Positions 28,092 through 40,659 of a stretch of 40,659 nt of DNA are shown one piece after another; the first letter of the stretch is position 1; each line of letters starts with the position of its first letter. The translations under genes and the position numbers were made by a program. A model generated the notes under the pieces. The model was not told where the DNA came from. It worked only from the letters and a program-made list of their open reading frames with translations, and searched no databases. The stretch lies in contig JAPYUI010000011.1 in the NCBI GenBank assembly GCA_029936175.1, positions 7,783-48,441 of the forward strand, given 5' to 3'. This stretch comes from Kiritimatiellia bacterium. Its GTDB lineage: Bacteria; Verrucomicrobiota; Kiritimatiellia; SS1-B-03-39; UBA6053.

Positions 28092-29819
28092 ATGAAACCC
28101 GGTAAGATTTTCATCCTCGGCCTCGGGTTGCTGGTCCTCTACGTCCTCGTCATCAACCTGCTCAGGCCGAGCGCGGAAACCCTCTACACATCGCTCGGCA
28201 TCCTGCTCGCGGGCACTGCGGTTCTTCGCGCCTTTACGCTCCCGGAGAGAAAACGCCCGGTACTGGCTCCGCTCCTCGCGTCCATGATTCCGGTCATGTT
28301 CATCTGGGCCTTCAACCCGGGCCAGACCAACCCTCGCCTGGCGTTCTATACCCTGCTGGTTGTCGTGGCCGGTGTGATTTTGGTCCACGGCTTGATGTGG
28401 TTTATTTTTCGTAAATCGGACCGGGCTATCCTCGCAACCGCCGTTGTGGCACTGACCTTTTTTACCTATGGCCATGCTTTTGAGTTCTTGTGGCAGCACA
28501 AGGTCGTATGGACCCAATGGAAGTTGAATCTTTTGCTCGGAGTCGGCTACGGCGGCCTTTCCGTTGCCTTCCTCGCCTGGATGTTGCGCACGAAGAGAAA
28601 CCTGCTTCCGGCCCTGATGCTGGTTCTGACCATTTCCGCGTTCATGGTGGTCTTCTCTGCCTTCAAGATGACAAGCCACGACACGTCCGCGACTTCGGTG
28701 AAGAGGGATCGTACGGGTTCAACCACCATCAGCGAAGCCGCCGGGGTATTCCCCGCGGGGGAACCGATCGAAGCGATCCTCGAGGACCGGGCGGATATGC
28801 CCGATATCTACTACATTATTCCGGATGCCTATGTGGGGGAAACGATCCTCCGGGATATATTTTCACACGAAAACAAGCCCTTCCTTGACTGGCTCAGGTC
28901 CAAGGGCTTCTACATCGCGGACCGGTCAACCTCGAACTATCCGATGACCTTCCTGTCCCTCGCGTCTTCACTCAACATGGTTTATCTCGACGACGTTATG
29001 AAGGAAGCCGGGCAAATGGGCACCTCGCGCAACCTGATCGCCCACGTTACCGCGAACAACTGGGTGGGGCGGCATCTCCGGAGTAAAGGGTATCGCTATA
29101 CCCAGATCATGACGATGGCAAATGCCACCAGTACGAGCGCGATTACCGACATGGAATTTGCGTACGTTCCCTATTGGCGGCGCAACCAATTCAACAACGT
29201 GTTCATGCAGACCACGGTGTTGCGTTCCCTGGTGCCGAGTGTTTCCGGTTCGCATATCTACTCCTTCGATACGCTTGAACGGGTTGCGGAGATCGACGGC
29301 CCAACCTTCCTCCTAGCCCATTTTATTCTTCCGCATCCGCCTTATGTCTTCGACCGGAACGGTGAAGTCATGAACAATATCCCGCTTTCGCTGCACTGGG
29401 ACCGGGCGGAGCGCAGCAAACTTGGCAACGGTTACCTGGACCAGTTGATCTATTTCAACACCCGGATTAAGCAATCCATCGAGGGAATTCTCACCAAGTC
29501 AAAGGTTCCGCCCATCATTATCATTCAGGCCGATCACGGCTGGGTGAATAGTGGACGCCCGGATGTACCGGTCAGCGATGAGGTCGCCTGGACGCCGCAT
29601 ATCAAGGAGCGATTCTCGATCTTGAATGCCTACCTGGTGCCTCCGAAAATACGCGAACGCCTGTACCCGTCAATCACTCCCGTGAATACGTTCCGCATTG
29701 TCCTCTCTGAACTGTTTGATGAAGACCTGCCCCTGCTCCCGGACGAGAACTACTTCTGCCCGGAAGAGAAGCAGCCGTATAACGTAACCAATGTCACCCA
29801 TATCGCACAGGAACGATAG
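28092..29819 (+). CDS. Membrane sulfatase/alkaline-phosphatase-fold enzyme (LTA-synthase-like layout)
   Basis: A 575-residue protein with six or so N-terminal membrane helices (residues 5-190) and a soluble alkaline-phosphatase-superfamily domain. Metal and active-site elements: MPDIYYIIPDAY (Asp245), TSNYPMTFLSLASSLNM with Thr286 as the likely nucleophile, HFILPHPPYVFDRNG, and IIIIQADHGW with the C-terminal Asp-His metal ligands. There is no CxPxR or SxPxR sulfatase motif, so it does not need the window's FGE. Comparable proteins transfer or hydrolyse phosphate-linked head groups on envelope glycans or lipids. It lies opposite the O-antigen-ligase-like gene, which suggests a shared cell-surface polysaccharide role. 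The start at 28092 has no Shine-Dalgarno but gives a sensible first helix. Confidence 0.82.
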   Translation: MKPGKIFILGLGLLVLYVLVINLLRPSAETLYTSLGILLAGTAVLRAFTLPERKRPVLAPLLASMIPVMFIWAFNPGQTNPRLAFYTLLVVVAGVILVHGLMWFIFRKSDRAILATAVVALTFFTYGHAFEFLWQHKVVWTQWKLNLLLGVGYGGLSVAFLAWMLRTKRNLLPALMLVLTISAFMVVFSAFKMTSHDTSATSVKRDRTGSTTISEAAGVFPAGEPIEAILEDRADMPDIYYIIPDAYVGETILRDIFSHENKPFLDWLRSKGFYIADRSTSNYPMTFLSLASSLNMVYLDDVMKEAGQMGTSRNLIAHVTANNWVGRHLRSKGYRYTQIMTMANATSTSAITDMEFAYVPYWRRNQFNNVFMQTTVLRSLVPSVSGSHIYSFDTLERVAEIDGPTFLLAHFILPHPPYVFDRNGEVMNNIPLSLHWDRAERSKLGNGYLDQLIYFNTRIKQSIEGILTKSKVPPIIIIQADHGWVNSGRPDVPVSDEVAWTPHIKERFSILNAYLVPPKIRERLYPSITPVNTFRIVLSELFDEDLPLLPDENYFCPEEKQPYNVTNVTHIAQER

Positions 29820-29868: not shown

Positions 29869-29965
29869 CGAATTAGGCTTGTCCGGGGCCATGGACCCTG
29901 CATGATCTCCGGGACAGGAATGGTGTCAAACAATGGCGGAGTCTCGCCCGTATAGTATAGCGACC

Positions 29966-32263
29966 ATGAAGCGGATGTTCTTCAACCTGGCCCTCGTGGC
30001 CGGCTACGCGATCCCGGTTATCCCCGGGTGGGCCGATAACTATGCCATTGTCTACGATGATGCATCGATCCAGACCGGGGAGGCGATCCACAACAGCTAC
30101 GCCTGGTCCCACCTGACCAATGCCACGACCATCGGTGAGGTGCCCCTCCTACAGGATAGCAAGGCCATCCGGTATATCCGCGAATACCATCGGGATGTCC
30201 AGTTGATCGGCCCCTATGTCCGCATGGCTAACGGGGATGTCCTCCCCGGGGTCCCCGCGGGCCTGTTGCCCGCCGATGAGGAACGCGGCCTCGACAAGCG
30301 TCTCCAGGTCCAGGTGTCTCCACCCTGCATGGGATTTAATGCCAATGACCGGGCTGTTTCGGTGCGTACCGATCGCGTGGCGGCAATCGTGTCCGACCCA
30401 TCCAAGGAGGCGAATCTCGCCCCGGGCACCCTTGAACTCAAGGACGGGACGCAGATCACGGTGAAATCCCTGCGCTGGGGCGAGGATGGGCTGAAGCTGC
30501 TTACCGCGGAGGGCGTCAAGCGCGTGAGCTATGCTGCGCTTGACTGTTACAAGGCGCGCAAGGTCGATACCTGGACGGCCCTGCAGGAGGACGCATCCGT
30601 GACCAGCCCGGATCCCCATGACAGGTTGGTGCAGATTCGCCTGGTCAACGGGGCCGTGCTCACCGCTAAGCGCATGCTGCTTATCGAGGTCGATCGGAAC
30701 GTTATCGGTATTCAGCCCGCCTGGGCCTACTCAGGGATTCGCTTCGACACGCGGCAGCACGTCGTGAGCCGAACCTATCGTGCGCTAAACGAGGTCCCGT
30801 TATCCCTTTTTCCCGTGACCTCGCTGAAGCAACAAAGTGCCACGGGTTTTCAATGGTCATGGTCCCGGGACCGCAATCTCCGCGGCGACGAACTGGGCTG
30901 CAATGAACTGCGCGCCGGTTATGGCCTGGCCACGCATTCCTACTCCGAGCTGGCGGTCGAGTTGCCGCCGGATGCCCACCGGTTTACCTCCTGGGTTGGA
31001 ATCGACCGCGCGGTGGGGAAGGGGGGCTGTGTGGAGTGCGCTGTTTACGGCGACGAAAAGGGCGGTACGCCCCTCTGGCAAAGTGGATTTATTCGCGGAG
31101 GTGAAGATCCCCTGTGCATTCCGCCCATCGATGTCTCGTCCTTTAAGCGACTGGTTTTCGTCACGGACTTCGGCCAGGACGGGCGACCCGAAGGTGCGGA
31201 TCCACTGGACATTCGCGATGAACTCGACTGGCTGAATCCAACCATCATCTTGAAGCGGGTACCCAAGGTCGAGACGCCGAAGCGGTATGCGCGGATTTAC
31301 GAACAACTGCTGGAATGGCAGGGTGCGGAGGCCTGGTCGAAAGAGACCCTGACCGGTCCCTGCGTCCTGCGCTGGTGGAGGCTCTACAGTGAAGGGCTTT
31401 ACCTGGATATCCAGGAGGAGTTTCGACTCAAGCGCACCCTGACTGTCAGCCCGACCAATGCCTGGCTCCATGTCCGGGCCACCCGTGCCCGGCAGGGCGT
31501 GGGCGGCCACGTCATCTCCCTGCATGTGAACGGCCGACTCCACGAACCCCGTGGTTGGATTGCCAGGGAGAACAACGTGTTTGTGCGGAAATGGTTAAAC
31601 CTGGAGACCCAGACCAAGACCGCTGGATCCCTGGGCGCCATGGATTGGGACCTGGGGCGCTATCTCGGCCAGGAAGTCACGCTAGAATTGGTGCTGCAAC
31701 CGGCAAAAAAACCGGGCGTTCCCCTGCCTTACCTGGTGCTTGAGAATATCCAGTTCCGCCCCGCGATTTATGCCGTCAACGATGCATATGTCGCACCGGT
31801 GATTCCCGAGATCAACCTGGAATCCATTCCGCCACAGGCGACCGAGCTCGTCATGGAGGGGGCAACATTGCAGGCGGGGAAAGACGTCACGGGCCAGCCA
31901 CTCCAGGTATACCATTTTCCCTATGCCACGGGCCTCGGCGTACCCGCGGGAAGCAGCCTGAGCTATACCCTCGATCCCGCCTGGAAACGGTTTGTCGCGG
32001 TTGTCGGCTATACCGGTATCAACTGGAAAGAGGTTGGACCCTATCAAGTATTCTTTGATGACGAATCGAGCTGGGTGAGCTCCTCTCCCATTCGCTTCGG
32101 TTGGTGGAGTCGCGGTACCCAGGTTGATATCCCCATCCCGCCCGGCAGCAAAACCATGACGCTCAAGATCGCCCCCGGCGAAGCCCATGGTGCCTGGGCC
32201 CAATCGGGCTTCATGACCCAGGCGAAGCCGCCAGCAGCAGGAGACCCTTTATCCGAACCCTGA
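29966..32263 (+). CDS. Exported protein with two NPCBM (carbohydrate-binding-like) domains
   Basis: A 765-residue exported protein. I start it at MKRMFFNLALVAGYAIPVIPGWA-DNYA, a clean signal peptide; the track's start 11 codons upstream adds a polar stretch that would spoil it. Short Sm-like beta repeats come first: GDVLPGVPAG, LKDGTQITVKSLRWGEDGLKL and LVNGAVLTAKRMLLIEVDRNVIGI. The first NPCBM domain (about 315-430) contains FTSWVGIDRAVGKGG and FKRLVFVTDFGQDG. A middle beta region follows, then a second NPCBM-like domain (about 650-755) with GLGVPAGSSLSYTLDPAWKRFVAVVGY. Such domains are thought to bind glycans, but proof is sparse. It probably heads the envelope cluster; its stop is inside the following gene's likely start region. 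Confidence 0.8.
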   Translation: MKRMFFNLALVAGYAIPVIPGWADNYAIVYDDASIQTGEAIHNSYAWSHLTNATTIGEVPLLQDSKAIRYIREYHRDVQLIGPYVRMANGDVLPGVPAGLLPADEERGLDKRLQVQVSPPCMGFNANDRAVSVRTDRVAAIVSDPSKEANLAPGTLELKDGTQITVKSLRWGEDGLKLLTAEGVKRVSYAALDCYKARKVDTWTALQEDASVTSPDPHDRLVQIRLVNGAVLTAKRMLLIEVDRNVIGIQPAWAYSGIRFDTRQHVVSRTYRALNEVPLSLFPVTSLKQQSATGFQWSWSRDRNLRGDELGCNELRAGYGLATHSYSELAVELPPDAHRFTSWVGIDRAVGKGGCVECAVYGDEKGGTPLWQSGFIRGGEDPLCIPPIDVSSFKRLVFVTDFGQDGRPEGADPLDIRDELDWLNPTIILKRVPKVETPKRYARIYEQLLEWQGAEAWSKETLTGPCVLRWWRLYSEGLYLDIQEEFRLKRTLTVSPTNAWLHVRATRARQGVGGHVISLHVNGRLHEPRGWIARENNVFVRKWLNLETQTKTAGSLGAMDWDLGRYLGQEVTLELVLQPAKKPGVPLPYLVLENIQFRPAIYAVNDAYVAPVIPEINLESIPPQATELVMEGATLQAGKDVTGQPLQVYHFPYATGLGVPAGSSLSYTLDPAWKRFVAVVGYTGINWKEVGPYQVFFDDESSWVSSSPIRFGWWSRGTQVDIPIPPGSKTMTLKIAPGEAHGAWAQSGFMTQAKPPAAGDPLSEP
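32239..32243 (+). promoter_or_regulatory. Shine-Dalgarno AGGAG that points to a non-ATG start
   Basis: AGGAG lies seven bases before ATC at 32251, in the frame of the following large gene. No ATG, GTG or TTG occurs in that frame between the upstream stop (32125-32127) and the ATG at 32401, yet the translation in between reads as a full signal peptide. The site therefore argues for initiation at ATC (or at the CTG at 32260). Confidence 0.55.
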
Positions 32264-35200
32264 TCCAACGCGGAGTCCACCCGTGTGGATGCCTGCTTCT
32301 CGTATCGTGCCTTGGCCTGCTCCCGATCGGTCCCACCGCGGACGCTGCCGAAGACTGGCACATATACGACGATCCCGGTCTCCGTGGAGATTTTCGCTGG
32401 ATGACCGACTTCCGGGAGCTCGCCAAGCCCCTCAGCCCGGAATCCACGTTCAAGGTCCAGGCCGAGCAAGGCTATATTGATCTCAAGGGGACTTTTCAAC
32501 TGCCTCCACTGGAGGATGGTCGCGCCTTCCGCCTCCGCCAGGCGGAGGTGAATGCCTCGGTCCTGCGCATTACCTTTGAGACCGCAGAAGGACCCTACCG
32601 GCTGGAGCTCGACCGGGCGTCCGGGTTAACCCTGGGCCTTTACAAGGACGGCCAACGCCTGGTGGATGATCAATCCCGTTGGTACGCCTACCGCGATGGA
32701 GTGCTCGACATACGTTACGTGGATTCGGAACTGAGCATTGCCCGTGGCACACAGACCCTCTGGTCCTTTCCGCTGGCCGCCGCGCCGACGAATACCCTGC
32801 TCGAGATAGCGGGCCGGCTCCAGCTCTTTCAGCACACGAGCCTGCCCGACATCGAGCCCTGGCAGGATCCCTATGGCATCGGCGAACTGCGAAGCGCCGA
32901 CAGCCTCGACTGGAAACGCCCGGCTGCGCACCGCTACAAGCCGCCAGACGATGGCAGCAGGCTGGAATTGCTTCCAGACGGCTCCGTTTCGCTCCTCAAC
33001 CCAGCGGGAAAGGATCACCGGTATGCCAGCGCGACCTATCATAGCCGTGGACCCTGCGTGATCACCTGCCGGGTGGATGACTGCTCGCATGCATCCGGGA
33101 TTGGTTTCTCCCTTTACGACCGCAACCAGCGGACCACCTACTTCGCGAAAAAAGGCGAACGCTTTGTTCTTTGCCGGGATCCCTTTAATGCCGGTGATGT
33201 CGGGAACTACGAAAAGCGTGGCTTTGTCTACACGGCTCCGTTTTACCTCCGCACCATCTACGGGTTGGATTTCATCGATTTCGAAGCCAGTCCGGACGGC
33301 GTACACTGGTCCATATACGACCGCATACAGCTCACCCAGCAGCACACCATGCCCCTGCATGTGCTCGAGTTGCAGCTCGCCGGTCGAAGCGAAGGACAAT
33401 CCCAGCATGTTCGATTGAGCCATGCGCACCTGCACCAGCAGCCCCTGTTTGAGGAGCAGGCTGACTGGATGCAGAATGCCAACCGGGCCCTGATCAATGG
33501 TTGGGGCCCAGCTTCGCTCAAGCAGAACGCCTCGATCGACTATCTGTTGCGTGCGCTTGGGGACCCGGAAAACATCGCCCGGACTTTCGCTGATACGCAG
33601 GATGCCATCCCTTTCATGCGCCCGTACCGCCGGGGGGGACAACCGCGTTCGGTCGACTTCGAAGCGGCCATGCGTTGGCATGGCCGGAACATGATCGCGA
33701 CCAGCGAATTTGACACCCTTGAGCAAAGTCTGGATACTTGGTACCGGCAGGGATACGAAACGAAGCGGCATCAGAGCTCTGCGGACCGCTACGGTCCACC
33801 GGCCCTTGTGCGCGAGGCCTTGTTCAGGGCATGGAAAGCGAAAGACTGGGCCAAGCTCCGCGTCCAGGCCTTGAAATATAACTGGCTGGCCAGTCCCAGT
33901 CGTGAAAACTTGCTTGCGGTCTGGATGCTCGACCAGGCTGAAGCCCATCTCGATGATGTCCCGAACGCGGAGGAAGGGACCTCGACCAAGCGTCGGCACT
34001 GGCCGCATCCCCTGCGGATCAGCCCGGATCGCGCGACGGTCAACTTGCTGGGTGAAATGCTGGCCGCCCTGGAGGATAACGATCCGGAGCAAGCTTGCAA
34101 GGTGCTCGTGCGCGGGGAACTTTCCGGAAGCCTGGTGGGTACCGAACACGATGCAAACCTTTACAAGCCTTCCGGTATCGTGGTGAAGGAGATCCTTGAG
34201 TCACACCCCGATATGCGACAAATCCTGGTCGATCAATTCAATGCCGTCGGGATGATTCGCGTCGGGCGGGCGAGTGCTGCCGGGGATGCTGCGGAGTTGG
34301 AACGCCTCGCCGATCAATTCGCGGGTACGCAAGCGGCCCGGAAAGCCCTGGCCTTGCTCGGTGACCGCGATTTAAGCATGGGGAACTTTGAAGGAGCGAT
34401 TCATCGCTTCGAAACCTTGATGCCCTACCTGGATGGGGAGGCGAAAGTCCAGCTTCGCGCCAAGCGCAACCTGGCCCTCGCGCTGGGTGGCCACCGACCC
34501 AAGGACGCAATCGCTGTCGCGGTTCAACTGGAAGATCGCTTGTTCAGCGCACCGGAATTCGCCGCACTGGTCGACTCCTGTCTCGTTGAATCCAGCGATG
34601 AAGGCCCGGTCGAACAGCTTGTGGTGAAGCCGCTGGAGCGGGGTACCTCCGTTTCGCTACAGCCCTTTATCACCAATCTCCTGCTCGCGGTTGAGCACCC
34701 GATCGCCTCGGTACAACAAGGATCCATCCTCGCCTTGCAGCAGGACCAGCTCCTGCAGGTTGTCGACCTTGCCCAGGGAGTTGTGAAGTATACCCACGGT
34801 GTGCCCCTGGACAAGCGCGCTACCCGGGCAGAAAATTTTCGACCGCTGTTCCAGGGCGGGCGCTTACTCGTGGTAAAAAGGGACAATAAGACCTATGTCC
34901 TTCAATGCCTGAATGTGTCGGATTACGCTCCCGTCTGGGAGCACCGCTTCACCGAAACCCTCACCAGTGACCCGGTGGTCATGGCTGGCCGACTGTACGT
35001 GGCGACGCGCTCTGCAAATGAATTACTGCACCTGCATCGTCTCAACTGGAATACCGGAAGACCGGAGGCGCGCACCCTGCTCATGCGGTACCCGCGTCCG
35101 GACAAATATCCTGAAATTATCCGGCCGCAGGTGGTCGGGACCCGCTTGATCCTGCCGATTCGTGGCGCGCTCATGGCCTGCGATGCCTGGGGTAATTTCC

Positions 35201-35838
35201 TCTGGGTCCGTCGGCTTCCATATGTGCCGTACAATGTCGATCACCGCATGTTCGCCGATTCAGAGCATCCCCAGGTTGTGGCAATAGATGAGAAGCGGAT
35301 GGTCGTGCTTGCCCCCTGCTCACCGGATATCTTCTGTATCGATGCCACGAACGGTCAGACCCAATGGCAACGTTTCTTGCCCGACCGTCGCTACCTGATC
35401 GGTCGTGCCGGTGATTCAATGCTGGTTCGCAACCGGTATTCCGTGGAAGCCCTGCGCCTGAGCGACGGCCGCACGAGCGAGCGACGTCCCGCCGTAGCCG
35501 ACCAGACCGCCTTCCTCCTTCAACCGGATGATGAGCTGGTTGAAATCCGGCTCGATCGTTCCAGGCCCGAGGACTTGGCGCCTAAAAGACGCCGAACCAG
35601 CCCGGTTTCCTGGAAGCCGGCTGCTGCCCGTTTTGTCCGGGTGGGAGACGACCCGAAGCTCAGGATGGAGCCCGGCATTGAAGGTTTCGCGAATGCGCAG
35701 GCCTGCTTTGCCGTCGATGGGAAGGCCTATGCACTCGCGTCCTTCTTCGTGGATGCCAAGGATCGCCAGCCGAAGATGGCCTTGGCGAAGATCGTCTTTG
35801 AGGATGCTCGTCCGCCTGCTGTCAAACAAGGCCCCTGA
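32251..35838 (+). CDS. Very large exported protein: LamG-like domain, helical repeats, PQQ-type beta-propeller
   Basis: From ATC at 32251 the product has 1195 residues. The track starts at the ATG 50 codons later, but the missing part reads RTLIQRGVHPCGCLLLVSCL then GLLPIGPTADA-AEDW, a textbook signal peptide, so the ATG start would leave a plainly exported protein without one. The candidates are ATC after AGGAG, or CTG at 32260, which overlaps the previous stop as CTGA. Domains: an N-terminal beta region and a concanavalin/LamG-like module (about 240-390) with FIDFEASPDGVHWSIYDRIQL; a helical repeat region (about 420-740) resembling TPR; and a PQQ-like beta-propeller (about 800-1130) with VWEHRFTETLTSDPVVMAGRLYVA, GALMACDAWGNFLWVRRLPY and IFCIDATNGQTQWQRF. 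The propeller resembles BamB, but no quinoprotein ligands are evident. Probably periplasmic or surface; function unknown. Confidence 0.78.
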   Translation: MRTLIQRGVHPCGCLLLVSCLGLLPIGPTADAAEDWHIYDDPGLRGDFRWMTDFRELAKPLSPESTFKVQAEQGYIDLKGTFQLPPLEDGRAFRLRQAEVNASVLRITFETAEGPYRLELDRASGLTLGLYKDGQRLVDDQSRWYAYRDGVLDIRYVDSELSIARGTQTLWSFPLAAAPTNTLLEIAGRLQLFQHTSLPDIEPWQDPYGIGELRSADSLDWKRPAAHRYKPPDDGSRLELLPDGSVSLLNPAGKDHRYASATYHSRGPCVITCRVDDCSHASGIGFSLYDRNQRTTYFAKKGERFVLCRDPFNAGDVGNYEKRGFVYTAPFYLRTIYGLDFIDFEASPDGVHWSIYDRIQLTQQHTMPLHVLELQLAGRSEGQSQHVRLSHAHLHQQPLFEEQADWMQNANRALINGWGPASLKQNASIDYLLRALGDPENIARTFADTQDAIPFMRPYRRGGQPRSVDFEAAMRWHGRNMIATSEFDTLEQSLDTWYRQGYETKRHQSSADRYGPPALVREALFRAWKAKDWAKLRVQALKYNWLASPSRENLLAVWMLDQAEAHLDDVPNAEEGTSTKRRHWPHPLRISPDRATVNLLGEMLAALEDNDPEQACKVLVRGELSGSLVGTEHDANLYKPSGIVVKEILESHPDMRQILVDQFNAVGMIRVGRASAAGDAAELERLADQFAGTQAARKALALLGDRDLSMGNFEGAIHRFETLMPYLDGEAKVQLRAKRNLALALGGHRPKDAIAVAVQLEDRLFSAPEFAALVDSCLVESSDEGPVEQLVVKPLERGTSVSLQPFITNLLLAVEHPIASVQQGSILALQQDQLLQVVDLAQGVVKYTHGVPLDKRATRAENFRPLFQGGRLLVVKRDNKTYVLQCLNVSDYAPVWEHRFTETLTSDPVVMAGRLYVATRSANELLHLHRLNWNTGRPEARTLLMRYPRPDKYPEIIRPQVVGTRLILPIRGALMACDAWGNFLWVRRLPYVPYNVDHRMFADSEHPQVVAIDEKRMVVLAPCSPDIFCIDATNGQTQWQRFLPDRRYLIGRAGDSMLVRNRYSVEALRLSDGRTSERRPAVADQTAFLLQPDDELVEIRLDRSRPEDLAPKRRRTSPVSWKPAAARFVRVGDDPKLRMEPGIEGFANAQACFAVDGKAYALASFFVDAKDRQPKMALAKIVFEDARPPAVKQGP

Positions 35839-35983
35839 GCGCCCACGATCGTTGACATTTTCCGGGGATTTCGCCCCAGCCATGGCCTTGGATTTTCCCG
35901 TCATGACCTGGCGATCATTTTGCCTGGAAATAATCCCCCTCCGGTCTTGACCGTGAAGCTGGAAAGATAAGGATGTCACTACC

Positions 35984-37108
35984 TTGGAAAGCTTTAGCAA
36001 AATTCTCCTTATGCTGCTGGTCGCCCTGACCCCGATCATGGGGCAGGCGGATGGTGACTGGGAAATTACCTCCGCCTCTGAACAGGCGGTTGACCGCGGC
36101 CTGGAATGGTTGGCCCGGAACCAGGGACCGGCGGGCAACTGGGACAGCAATGACCTGGGCGTTGTGTCATACGGGGCATTGGCTTTCATGGCCGCGGGCC
36201 ACCTGCCGGATCGGGGTAAATACGGGAGCCATGTACGGCGTGCCCTGGATTTTGTCCTGCAGAACGCCAAGCCCTCCGGACTCCTCAACAGCGCGGAGGG
36301 TAGACGGGACATGTACAACCACGGGATGGCCGTCTTCGTCCTCTCGCAAGCCTACGGGATGACGACCGATAAGCGCCTGGGCAAGGGCCTGGACCTCGGG
36401 ATCAAGCTCATTCTGGACGTTCAGTGTGATGACGGCGGTTGGGCTTACGAAGCGATTCGGAAGGCGCGGGGGAATGACCTGTCGATCGCGGTCATGCAGG
36501 CGAAGGCCCTGCGCTCTGCCATGGACATCGGCCTGGATATCCCGGATGAAAGTGTCGAGCGCTCCCTGCAGTTCATCCGGGCCCGTTACAAGCCGTACGG
36601 CGAAGCCGACGGGATCCGCTATGGGAACGATCCCCTGTCCGAGCGCCCGGGGGCCTTTACCTACAACGGCAACAAGGCCACGGTGGCCATGGCTGCGGCC
36701 GGTGCGGTCTGTATGCAGGAATTTGGCAAGTACGACGATTTCCGTATCCTCCGCAGCGTCGACAAGGTCATTGGCGACATCGAGGGCGAGATGAAGGAGA
36801 AGCTGAATCCCGGTAACATCCCCTTTGATGCCTATGCGATGAACTACGTGGCCCAGGCTCTTTACCAGGTTGGCGGCCAGCGTTGGCGCGACAACTACCC
36901 CAAGGTCCGCGATGCCATCATCGAAATGCAGGCCAAGGGTGGGGGCAACGCCAGCGATGGTTCCTGGGGTGCCAATGGCCACCTGGGTGGAAAAGTCGGC
37001 CAGTGCTACGGTACCTCCGTGGCTGTATTTTCCCTGAGTATCCCCAATCGATACCTCCCCATCCTCCAGGAAGGTGAAGCCAGGATCAGCAAGAGACGAT
37101 CGAAGTGA
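35984..37108 (+). CDS. Exported prenyltransferase/squalene-oxidase-repeat (alpha/alpha-toroid) protein
   Basis: A 374-residue protein with a signal peptide (MESFSKILLMLLVALTPIMGQA-DGDW). The start is TTG, preceded by AAGGA at about 11 bases. The rest is an alpha/alpha barrel of the squalene-cyclase/prenyltransferase-repeat type: GLEWLARNQGPAGNWDS, LILDVQCDDGGWAYE and the C-terminal DGSWGANGHLGGKVGQCYGTSVAVFSLSIPNRYLPILQ. The latter block is common in exported PVC proteins of this kind. It lacks the DxDD catalytic motif of squalene-hopene cyclases, and a periplasmic location does not suit a terpene cyclase. A binding or structural role is more likely. The stop overlaps the GTG start of the next gene (GTGA). 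Confidence 0.85.
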   Translation: MESFSKILLMLLVALTPIMGQADGDWEITSASEQAVDRGLEWLARNQGPAGNWDSNDLGVVSYGALAFMAAGHLPDRGKYGSHVRRALDFVLQNAKPSGLLNSAEGRRDMYNHGMAVFVLSQAYGMTTDKRLGKGLDLGIKLILDVQCDDGGWAYEAIRKARGNDLSIAVMQAKALRSAMDIGLDIPDESVERSLQFIRARYKPYGEADGIRYGNDPLSERPGAFTYNGNKATVAMAAAGAVCMQEFGKYDDFRILRSVDKVIGDIEGEMKEKLNPGNIPFDAYAMNYVAQALYQVGGQRWRDNYPKVRDAIIEMQAKGGGNASDGSWGANGHLGGKVGQCYGTSVAVFSLSIPNRYLPILQEGEARISKRRSK

Positions 37109-39561
37109 GTTTTGTATCCGGTGCATTCCTGGTCGCCCTGTTCGCAGCGGCAGGCCCGTTTATCATCCACCTGCTTAACCGACGGCGTTTTCGCACCGTC
37201 GACTGGGCGGCCATGGATTTCCTCCGGACCGCGATCCGGCGAAACAAGCGTGTTCTCGAGCTGCGGGACCTCCTGCTGATGCTTCTGCGTACCCTGGCGG
37301 TGGCCCTGTTTGTCCTCGCCATGGCTCAACCCTTCTGGTCCGCCGGGTCGAAATCGGCCTACAATGGGCAGCCGGTCCACGCGGTTATCGTGGTCGATAA
37401 CAGCCTGTCCATGGCCTATAAGCCGCTGGACAAGACCCTGCTCGATCTCGCCAAGGAGCGAGCGGCCCGCTTCGTCAAGGAATTGCCCGAGGGGTCCCGC
37501 ATCAGCATCTTTCCCCTCGCGGGCAGCCCGAGTGCCCATCACAGTGCCTACGTCTCGCCGGAAGATGCCCTGGAGGCCCTGGGCCATGTCCGCCTCGTCG
37601 ACCGCAGTACCCGCATCAGCGATGCGGCCGAGCTCGCCCGCCGCGCGGCCGCCGAGGTAGCGGATCTCCCGACCAAACGGATCGTCATCCTCAGTGATAT
37701 GCAGCGCAATAGCTGGAGCGAGGATGAAATGGCCCTCTCCTTCAAGGGCATGGACAATGTGCAGTTGGTCGCTGTGGGACCATCGAGTCGCAGCAATGTA
37801 TGGATTGCGGACTTGCAGGTGCGCGATGGCATGGCGGATAGCGTGTCGCCGGCCCTGTTTACGGCTGTGCTGCGCTACGAGGGCGAGGCCCCCCGCACCG
37901 GCGTGCGCGCCGTGCTCAAGGCGGGCGATGCGGTCATTGGCGACCAGACGGTCAGTCTCACCCCGGGGCAGCACTTGCAACTGATCTACCAGTATCGCTT
38001 TACCGTGGCGGGCAATGCGGGTGAACCACTCTATGTTCCGGTTACCCTGGAGATTTCAGGGGACGAGTTGAACGAGGACAATAGTCGCTCGATCCTGGTG
38101 CCTGTCATTTCCCGTTTGCCGGTCGTGTTCATCGACCAGTACGGTAGCCGCGAACATCCGCGGATGAGCCGCTACGGGGAGACCTATCCACTGCGTCGCA
38201 TGTTAGCTGCCCGGCGTCCTGGAGAGTTGCGGGATAACAGCTTGATCGACGTTCGCCACCTCGCCATCGAGCAGGTCACCCGCGAAATACTCGCCGATGC
38301 ACGCATGGTTGTCATGGCGGGTGTCCGCGGTCCGACGGATGAAGCGGTTGCGGTCCTGCGCGAGTATGTCTCGCAGGGCGGCCCCTTGCTCATTGCCGCC
38401 GGCGGCGAATTCGAAGCCCCGGCCTGGATGGACCTGGCCTGGAATGACGGTCGCGGTATCCTCCCCGCACCCCTGCGTGAATTGCCCATTGGGAGACTGC
38501 CCACGCCCAACTCCCGGGACTTGAAGCCCTTCGGCCTGGATGCCTCGTCGATGAACGACGCCGCCTTCGACCTGGAGCTCACCGAAACGGAACGCGATGC
38601 GGTGTTGAACCTGCCTTTCTTCTACAAGGCGGTTGCACTTGATACCGGGCGCATTGACACCTTTTCAGCGTCGCTTCGCAAGGAGATCGAAGAAAGGCGC
38701 GCGGTTGAAAAGACCTACGCCGAGGCCGAGAATGCATGGGCCACCAAGGCGCAGAACGGGGACTTGAGTGCTGCCGATGCCCGGAAGCGCGAAGAGGCTC
38801 ATGCCGCATTCGCGGGAACGCGTCCCACGTGGTTGAAGTGGGTGCCGTCCCGTTCACACAAGCTGGATGGATTGTCGACGGATCAGCGCCTCGCGCTTGC
38901 CCGCCCGGTGGTCATGGGCCGCTATGACAACGGCGAAGCCTTTGCGGTGCGTCGCAACGTGGGCAAGGGCTCGATTGTCATGATGACCAGCGGCATCTTC
39001 CCTGAATGGAATAATCTCGCGGCCGATGCCGGTGTGGTGCTGCTTGACGGGATGGTGCGTGGGCTCCTGAGTACCGCTCTTCCGGACCGGAATATTGAGC
39101 CGGCGAACGAGTGGGCCTACCCGGTACCTGCTAAGGATCAAAAGGCCGCCTTCCATGTGTATGTGCCGGGAGAAGAAACCCCGATCAGCCTGAGTCCCGA
39201 CCCACTGAGCGGAACCACCTTCGGCCTGCGTCTTGGCCAGCTGCATGCCCGCGGCGTCTACCGCATCCACCGCCTGCCCGACGAAGGCGAGGATGGCGTC
39301 GGCGAGTGGAGCCGATTACTCGCCTTGAATGGTCCGGCTTCCGAAAGCGAGTTGAACAGCCTGGTGGTCGATGAATTTGCTGCAAGCTACAAAGGGGACG
39401 GGGTTAAGTGGGTCGGCCAGGAAACCAAGATCGCCCTCGCCGGTGGATTCACCAGCGGTCATCGCCTGTGGAAATGGCTGCTCGCCCTGGCCATCGCCTG
39501 CCTCCTGGTTGAGATGCTCATTCTCAAGGAAAAGCGCCAGTTGAAGGAGCGGATCGCATGA
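37105..39561 (+). CDS. BatA-type membrane protein with VWA domain
   Basis: An 818-residue membrane protein. It starts with GTG overlapping the previous stop (GTGA). The N-terminal double-membrane-helix module (residues 1-78) with HLLNRRRFRTVDWAAMDFL and NKRVLELRDLLLMLLRTLAVALFVLAMAQPF is the BatA/aerotolerance N-terminal domain. A VWA domain follows, with an intact MIDAS DNSLS (98-102) and IVILSDMQRNSWS. A beta-sandwich, a GATase1-like Rossmann segment (VVMAGVRGPTDEAVAVLREYVSQGGPLLIAAGGEF) and a predicted coiled coil (LRKEIEERRAVEKTYAEAENAW) come next. The protein ends in a membrane helix LLALAIACLLVEMLIL. Such genes often accompany MoxR ATPases and DUF58 proteins, which could lie beyond the right edge. 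Likely a metal-dependent protein-interaction hub at the inner membrane. Confidence 0.88.
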   Translation: MSFVSGAFLVALFAAAGPFIIHLLNRRRFRTVDWAAMDFLRTAIRRNKRVLELRDLLLMLLRTLAVALFVLAMAQPFWSAGSKSAYNGQPVHAVIVVDNSLSMAYKPLDKTLLDLAKERAARFVKELPEGSRISIFPLAGSPSAHHSAYVSPEDALEALGHVRLVDRSTRISDAAELARRAAAEVADLPTKRIVILSDMQRNSWSEDEMALSFKGMDNVQLVAVGPSSRSNVWIADLQVRDGMADSVSPALFTAVLRYEGEAPRTGVRAVLKAGDAVIGDQTVSLTPGQHLQLIYQYRFTVAGNAGEPLYVPVTLEISGDELNEDNSRSILVPVISRLPVVFIDQYGSREHPRMSRYGETYPLRRMLAARRPGELRDNSLIDVRHLAIEQVTREILADARMVVMAGVRGPTDEAVAVLREYVSQGGPLLIAAGGEFEAPAWMDLAWNDGRGILPAPLRELPIGRLPTPNSRDLKPFGLDASSMNDAAFDLELTETERDAVLNLPFFYKAVALDTGRIDTFSASLRKEIEERRAVEKTYAEAENAWATKAQNGDLSAADARKREEAHAAFAGTRPTWLKWVPSRSHKLDGLSTDQRLALARPVVMGRYDNGEAFAVRRNVGKGSIVMMTSGIFPEWNNLAADAGVVLLDGMVRGLLSTALPDRNIEPANEWAYPVPAKDQKAAFHVYVPGEETPISLSPDPLSGTTFGLRLGQLHARGVYRIHRLPDEGEDGVGEWSRLLALNGPASESELNSLVVDEFAASYKGDGVKWVGQETKIALAGGFTSGHRLWKWLLALAIACLLVEMLILKEKRQLKERIA

Positions 39562-40659
39562 CGCAATGGGTGGGCAGGTTGTTCGGGCTGGAGGACGTTT
39601 CAAAAATCCACTCCTGGGACATCTCCTTTGCCGCGGCCTGGGCGCGAACCTACCCGGTGCTCCTGCTCTTTGCCGTGATTGGCGTCGTGGTGCTGGGGGT
39701 GCTGTACTACCTTCGCTTCCAATCCGTTGCCCGGCATTTTGGTCGCGATGTCATGGCCTTTTTCCGCGCGTTTTTGCTGCTCTTGTTGTTGCTCATTTTC
39801 GCTGAACCGGTCATCTCGATGAAGCTCACCGAACACCCCAAGCCGCTCCTCCTTGCGCTGTTTGATGGCTCGGACAGCATGAATATTCCGGACAAGTTGA
39901 GTGATGAGGTAAAAGCCGAATTGACCGCAGTGATTCCCGATGCGGCTTCACTCGACAGGCCCTCTCGCCTGGACCTGATCAGGCAAACCCTTGATGGCCC
40001 GGCTAAGGAAACCCTGGCGGCGCTTGAGGAACGGGTACGTATCCGGGCCTATGTCATGGACCGTTCGGACCGGGTTCGCGAAATCGATGCCGCGAATATC
40101 AGCACCAATCTTGTCGCGGAGGGGCAGGTTACCGCGCTCGGGAATGCCCTGCGTGATCTCAGTGCCCGTCACAAGGGGCCGCTGCTCGCGGGCGTGGTGG
40201 TGTTCAGTGATTTTGACAAGAATGCCGGCACCGATCCCGTCGCGGCCGCGCGGGAGCTCGAGGCCCCGGTATTTGCCGTGGGTGTCGCCCCGAAAGAAGT
40301 TGTCGATGTTGCGGTGAGCATCAGTGCTCCGCCGGTCTTGAAGAACGACATCGAGGCAACGGTGACGGTGCATCTGCGTCAATCGGGCCTCCAGTCCCGG
40401 ACAGCCCGGGTGACCTTGATGGCGCGGCGACTCGGTTCCAGGGGGGGCAGCGCAGTGCAGTCCACGCCGGTTCCGGCCTCTGCGCCCCGTATGGTTGAGC
40501 TCCGCTCCGCGGAAGTCGATGTGGAGATGCCCTTCAAGCCCACAATCAGTGGCCGCTATCAAATGGAAGTGCGTGTCGATGCCTTTCCCGACGAGGTGCT
40601 GATCGAGAACAACGTGGCGGATCGCGAGTTAACCGTGCGCGATGATTCGCTCAAGCTCT
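39558..40659 (+). CDS. Second VWA membrane protein, 5' part (runs off the right edge)
   Basis: This gene is missing from the supplied ORF track because it has no stop inside the window. ATG at 39558 overlaps the previous stop as ATGA. The 367 visible residues start MTQWVGRLFGLEDVSKIH. Two membrane helices follow (YPVLLLFAVIGVVVLGVLYYL and FFRAFLLLLLLLIFAEPVI), then a VWA-like domain whose MIDAS reads DGSDS (103-107), with LAGVVVFSDFDKNAG and VFAVGVAPKE. A beta domain with ISAPPVLKNDIEATVTVHLRQ comes next. The layout is that of the large VWA/GATase membrane proteins encoded after BatA-type genes in PVC genomes, and the missing C-terminal half may include the GATase1-like part. It is the fifth consecutive plus-strand gene of the envelope cluster. 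Confidence 0.85.
   Translation, partial: MTQWVGRLFGLEDVSKIHSWDISFAAAWARTYPVLLLFAVIGVVVLGVLYYLRFQSVARHFGRDVMAFFRAFLLLLLLLIFAEPVISMKLTEHPKPLLLALFDGSDSMNIPDKLSDEVKAELTAVIPDAASLDRPSRLDLIRQTLDGPAKETLAALEERVRIRAYVMDRSDRVREIDAANISTNLVAEGQVTALGNALRDLSARHKGPLLAGVVVFSDFDKNAGTDPVAAARELEAPVFAVGVAPKEVVDVAVSISAPPVLKNDIEATVTVHLRQSGLQSRTARVTLMARRLGSRGGSAVQSTPVPASAPRMVELRSAEVDVEMPFKPTISGRYQMEVRVDAFPDEVLIENNVADRELTVRDDSLKL

Follow-up and report, generated by a model that had tools for sequence, protein, structure and literature searches.

Five co-directional genes occupy the plus strand from 29933 to 40659 of the window (the whole stretch of DNA analysed here, 40,659 nucleotides), as the initial annotation had stated. 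They encode an exported NPCBM protein of 776 aa with two NPCBM/NEW2 carbohydrate-binding-type domains (29933-32263), an exported protein of ~1190 aa with a non-standard start, referred to below as the PQQ giant (32260-35838), a secreted cyclase-fold protein of 374 aa with an alpha/alpha-toroid fold, referred to as the toroid (35984-37108), a BatA-type membrane protein of 818 aa (37105-39561), and a second VWA membrane protein, VWA2, whose N-terminal 367 aa lie in the window before the gene runs off its edge (39558-40659). Three of the four junctions overlap, at CTGA (32260), GTGA (37105) and ATGA (39558), again as originally described, and the sole non-overlapping one is a 145-bp gap between the PQQ giant and toroid genes. 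The NPCBM gene had been started at an internal ATG at 29966; the longer open reading frame begins at 29933. A scan of the locus for promoters and terminators gave nothing decisive. Upstream of the cluster and outside it, positions 28092-29819 encode a membrane protein of 575 aa, for which about six transmembrane helices are predicted and which has no confident Pfam match.

The domain labels first given to these proteins (double NPCBM, PQQ, cyclase fold, BatA and VWA) were all matched by Pfam: two NPCBM stretches (1.9e-27), PQQ_2 (1.4e-9), SQHop_cyclase_C (1.2e-6), and BatA (3.6e-16) with VWA_2 (2.2e-10), the last protein also matching the NCBIfam model two_anch (2.2e-19). VWA2 was recognized by its family match, and a LamG label that had been applied to the PQQ giant is supported by no profile. 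By profile and hydropathy, BatA consists of two N-terminal transmembrane helices, a VWA domain with a MIDAS, and a C-terminal transmembrane helix. Alignments of both VWA families show an invariant DxSxS motif, in agreement with the proposal of two MIDAS-bearing membrane proteins. Hydropathy and charge together follow a positive-inside pattern that would place the VWA domain of BatA in the periplasm, as in the Borrelia BatA-type protein BB0173, whose VWA domain is periplasmic (PMC5700661).

The start of the PQQ giant required closer attention. No ATG, GTG or TTG codon is found ahead of the signal peptide between 32128 and 32401, and the first ATG, at 32401, would cut the signal peptide off. In the ortholog from G336, a genome of another family in the same class, the mature region begins with similar sequence (WRVYDDPGMRGDHRW in the PQQ giant versus WHIYDDPGLRGDFRW in the ortholog), so the coding is real, and translation must begin at the CTG at 32260, which overlaps the NPCBM stop codon, or at a nearby ATC, unless the start is hidden by a sequence error. 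The two orthologs are 33% and 29% identical over two long stretches, as compared to 68% for the toroid, 53% for BatA, and 56% and 67% for the two parts of VWA2; with the lowest identities, the PQQ giant is the fastest-diverging member of the cluster. Its AlphaFold model is poor overall (pLDDT 61) and at this low confidence contains an all-beta N-terminal third, a helical, TPR-like middle, and a BamB/PQQ-type beta-propeller. The propeller matches BamB both by profile (2.4e-9) and by fold (Foldseek).

The toroid model is better defined (pLDDT 83, pTM 0.84), and Foldseek aligns it with terpene cyclases, GH76 mannanases, and macroglobulin-type toroids at TM scores of about 0.5-0.6. An active squalene or terpene cyclase was considered and rejected because the catalytic DxDD motif is not conserved: in what appears by eye to be the corresponding stretch of alignment A2, many rows carry DADLS, and the window toroid carries GNDLS. 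Neither A2 nor a further alignment, A1, had any stretch with sufficient conservation to scan genomes by.

Conservation of the gene order

A BatA alignment was used to scan named genomes, and the best 80 matches were taken as loci. Within these best 80, the organism was a member of the Planctomycetota or Verrucomicrobiota wherever one was named, with three loci titled only 'uncultured bacterium', in line with the suggested restriction to PVC bacteria. Conservation of gene order had been set as a test of the proposed cluster, and Planctomycetota loci that have the cluster do keep one order: the toroid, BatA, VWA2, a DUF4175-like protein, a coiled-coil protein (X), MoxR, and DUF58. Preceded by the PQQ giant, this is the order that we term type II: PQQ giant, toroid, BatA, VWA2, DUF4175-like, X, MoxR, DUF58. 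G336 carries it intact, with two MoxR genes in succession ahead of DUF58. In the testable loci of the type II clade, BatA is immediately preceded by the toroid gene in 23 of 29 and immediately followed by VWA2 in 22 of 28, with the DUF4175-like gene (19/25), X (15/21), and MoxR (11/16) further downstream. Because the order is conserved in other genomes, the arrangement is far beyond chance. The exceptions are loci with a lone BatA gene (L125, L131, L138, L143, L144 and L151), and one further locus, L129, also fails for the downstream genes and keeps the toroid gene alone. Five of the lone BatA genes (L125, L131, L138, L144 and L151) form a subclade within type II, with no toroid, VWA2 or MoxR gene within 10 kb.

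The position in front of the toroid is more variable. Of 19 testable Planctomycetota loci, four (L120, L124, L127 and L139) have a homolog of the PQQ giant ahead of the toroid, and in one of these, L127, four other open reading frames lie in between. No match to the PQQ giant was found in 57 related genomes, and a pattern scan of 85,462 genomes found no relative; since homologs exist in G336 and in these four loci, the negative pattern scan reflects a limit of sensitivity. In L116, the gene before the toroid (L116:2-1051) encodes PA14 and CBM9 domains, indicating that this slot varies among exported binding-type proteins. The resemblance of the propeller to BamB, by both profile and fold, could be taken to mean that the locus is a set of outer-membrane assembly factors, with a BamB-like PQQ giant and the remaining proteins in support. 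We regard this as very improbable, as most type II loci have no adjoining PQQ giant. BamB, moreover, is a free-standing propeller lipoprotein of the BAM complex, whereas the propeller here is joined to two further regions in a ~1190-aa protein three times as large as BamB. A general survey of the neighbouring genes brought no Omp85 gene to light.

The NPCBM gene had been counted as a member of the cluster, and this part of the proposal did not hold. In G336 no such gene lies ahead of the PQQ giant, none of the 19 testable Planctomycetota loci has one (0/19), and the 57 related genomes yielded only domain-level matches to its product. Judged by these comparisons it is an accessory neighbour outside the conserved unit, despite its overlap with the PQQ giant gene. 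Its absence from the conserved unit bears on the reading of the locus as one for carbohydrate recognition or uptake, in which the NPCBM protein, the PQQ giant, and the toroid would bind or process extracellular polysaccharide and the VWA proteins would form a surface scaffold. The NPCBM domains, the PA14 and CBM9 domains before the toroid in L116, and the resemblance of the toroid model to carbohydrate enzymes with a toroid fold, GH76 mannanases among them, all suit such a locus, but the NPCBM gene is not conserved, none of the genes in the conserved set was recognized as a transporter or clear hydrolase, and MoxR and DUF58 belong to the conserved unit. Taken together, we consider a carbohydrate locus unlikely.

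The right edge of the window and the far half of the cluster

The contig to which the window belongs, C461, continues for 1.4 kb past the window edge and then ends. The edge itself, at 40659, coincides with a 100-N scaffold gap (C461:48442 onward), both flanks of which encode an identical 15 residues, VADRELTVRDDSLKL. As the flanks repeat the same 15 codons, the gap is spurious, its length is wrong, and nothing is missing there; other N runs of a similar kind are present elsewhere on C461. Past the gap, VWA2 resumes at L009:8552-9841, for a total of at least 782 aa, and its C-terminal part matches DUF7408.

A MoxR gene had been predicted beyond the right edge. None was found on C461, and no overlap was detected between the end of C461 and any other contig. 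When X of G336 was used as a query against the window's own genome, a single place was found, at the end of contig C261. This contig opens within X, whose final ~107 residues it encodes (residues 1098-1204 of the G336 protein, 46% identity). MoxR and then DUF58 follow directly, 69% and 73% identical to their G336 counterparts, respectively. Other MoxR proteins of the same genome (C331, C375 and C137) are 45-56% identical to those of G336, and other DUF58 proteins (C331 and C375) are 35-36% identical. The trees built for MoxR and for DUF58 each pair the C261 copy with G336. The pair on C331 was also considered as the missing MoxR-DUF58, and was rejected because C261 is more similar to G336. The predicted MoxR and the DUF58 gene expected with it are thus both present in this genome and in the intact G336 ortholog. 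Synteny supports a position ~5 kb past the window edge for the two genes, the contigs themselves not being contiguous. By the same synteny, on which the link between C461 and C261 rests, the window would hold the left half of the cluster and C261 the far half. The assembly of this genome lacks the DUF4175-like gene and the greater part of X. A DUF4159 gene had also been named as one to look for, and no match to it was seen among the scanned neighbours; the big membrane partner instead matches DUF4175 (PF13779 in three of seven DUF4175-like proteins, best 7.3e-10).

The presence of MoxR, VWA proteins, and a protein that joins a helical/TPR region and a beta-propeller to a variable N-terminal part recalls the MoxR-vWA-beta-propeller ternary conflict (defence) systems of Kaur et al. 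2020 (PMC7159879), and the MoxR of one paralogous cluster, on C375, weakly matches the bpMoxR profile (2e-11). That same protein is far better fitted by AAA_3 (2.3e-64), however, and in contrast to the ternary systems no propeller is fused to BatA or VWA2, the components are exported or membrane-bound in the envelope, and the P-loops are GVPGLAKT (C261) and GVPGVGKT and GVPGVAKT (G336), as opposed to the GXXXTAKS often found in those systems. We therefore give a conflict system little credence.

Paralogous clusters, known relatives and ancestry

The window's genome contains 13 strong MoxR places and 10 BatA places. Several of these paralogs form clusters with the layout MoxR-DUF58-BatA-VWA2-DUF4175-like-toroid, termed type I, which is present several times per genome in the window's class. 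Type I clusters (on C375, C199, C210 and C381 of the same genome, and in Isosphaeraceae and Verrucomicrobiales) have homologous BatA, VWA2, DUF4175-like, toroid, MoxR, and DUF58 proteins and, like type II, sometimes a PQQ protein. Unlike type II, they have MoxR-DUF58 directly before BatA, their BatA proteins form a separate clade, and a single long protein often makes up the DUF4175-like part. A complete type I cluster, in one run at C375:31000-50900 (L076), comprises MoxR, DUF58, BatA, a PQQ protein, the toroid, VWA2, and a DUF4175-like protein; this PQQ protein gives a marginal match to the PQQ giant, over the propeller only. The coiled-coil protein X contains low-complexity sequence rich in Gly, Glu and Gln, and our impression is that it is similar to the C-terminal portion of the long DUF4175-like proteins found in some type I clusters. 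A Pfam TrAA12 match in X was not trusted, as it falls in the low-complexity region.

The cluster had been put forward as the best candidate for a new system in the window. MoxR-DUF58-Bat operons have already been described (PMC5700661), and the same genome holds several related paralogous clusters, so the kind is not a new one. Type II has MoxR (on C261, and two copies in G336), DUF58 adjoining MoxR, a two-anchor BatA with a MIDAS, and a second VWA protein; it is a variant of the MoxR-DUF58-Bat operons and a larger relative of the poorly understood Bat/cmd envelope-integrity operons found in other bacteria. Bat (BatI) operons of Bacteroides, Leptospira, and Borrelia share with it MoxR, DUF58, and BatA-type VWA membrane proteins, while type II has extra exported proteins and VWA proteins that are far longer, at about 800 aa. 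A general domain scan of neighbouring genes showed neither BatC (TPR) nor BatD. The cmdA-cmdD operon (RL3499-RL3502) of R. leguminosarum, which is broadly conserved (PMC3893208, PMC5700661), likewise has a MoxR, of the MRP subfamily. In contrast to cmdA-cmdD, type II adds the toroid, PQQ giant, DUF4175-like, and coiled-coil proteins and places MoxR-DUF58 last. Literature searches turned up no account of such a MoxR cluster in PVC bacteria, nor of the family to which it belongs.

In the BatA tree, the window falls in a clade with 32 scan rows (SH-aLRT 100), nearly all from Planctomycetota, where it is sister to L116 (99) and apart from the paralogs of its own genome. The toroid tree likewise nests the window inside a Planctomycetota clade. 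Of the 346 genomes examined from the class to which the window belongs, just one other, G336, has a BatA of the window type (53% identity). A cluster that nests in a Planctomycetota clade and is confined to 2 of these 346 genomes was probably acquired horizontally. Contamination of the contig by planctomycete DNA is unlikely given that the NAD kinase encoded in the window is 48-50% identical to those of two genomes of its own family and class, as compared to 41% at most in the other genomes tested, and given that GC content is uniform.

A proposed MoxR-driven envelope machine

From its genes and from analogy with characterized relatives, the type II cluster would fairly likely encode an envelope machine of the MoxR-DUF58-Bat kind, in which an ATPase remodels an inner-membrane complex that holds exported partners. 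MoxR would act as a cytoplasmic AAA+ ring together with a soluble DUF58 protein, neither of the two having a transmembrane segment. BatA and VWA2 would reside in the inner membrane alongside the DUF4175-like protein, and their VWA domains would extend into the periplasm, where these could bind the toroid, the PQQ giant, and in this genome perhaps also the NPCBM protein. ATP hydrolysis would then remodel the complex, allowing the cytoplasmic ATPase to act through its membrane partners on periplasmic clients. Since the PQQ giant diverges fastest, it is probably the part of such a complex that is responsible for recognition.

Assembly or maintenance of an envelope structure would be the likely outcome. 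Cells of R. leguminosarum that lose the cmd operon are affected in their morphology and in the integrity of the membrane (PMC3893208, PMC5700661), and by analogy the type II machine probably serves envelope integrity. In Leptospira, deletion of bat produced no growth or morphology phenotype (PMC3557215), meaning that an envelope role may not transfer.

A more specific device can be imagined, in which the toroid and VWA2 would be a split, membrane-anchored, macroglobulin-like apparatus for periplasmic capture, reset by MoxR-DUF58 and with the PQQ giant as its recognition arm. This reading follows from the fold that the toroid shares with the macroglobulin thioester domain and from a weak MG2 macroglobulin match in the C-terminal part of VWA2 (L009:8552-9841 and orthologs; four proteins, E values of 5e-4 to 0.02), which reaches 3e-7 in other members of the VWA2 family. 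The CGEQ thioester motif of the alpha-2-macroglobulin thioester domain is absent from the protein sequence, and we hold such a device to be very improbable.

MoxR/Bat operons are widespread. The type II order names the toroid and the propeller giant as candidate clients, tied to the ATPase by their order across Planctomycetota and in two genomes of another class, in genomes that hold several MoxR/Bat-type clusters in parallel.
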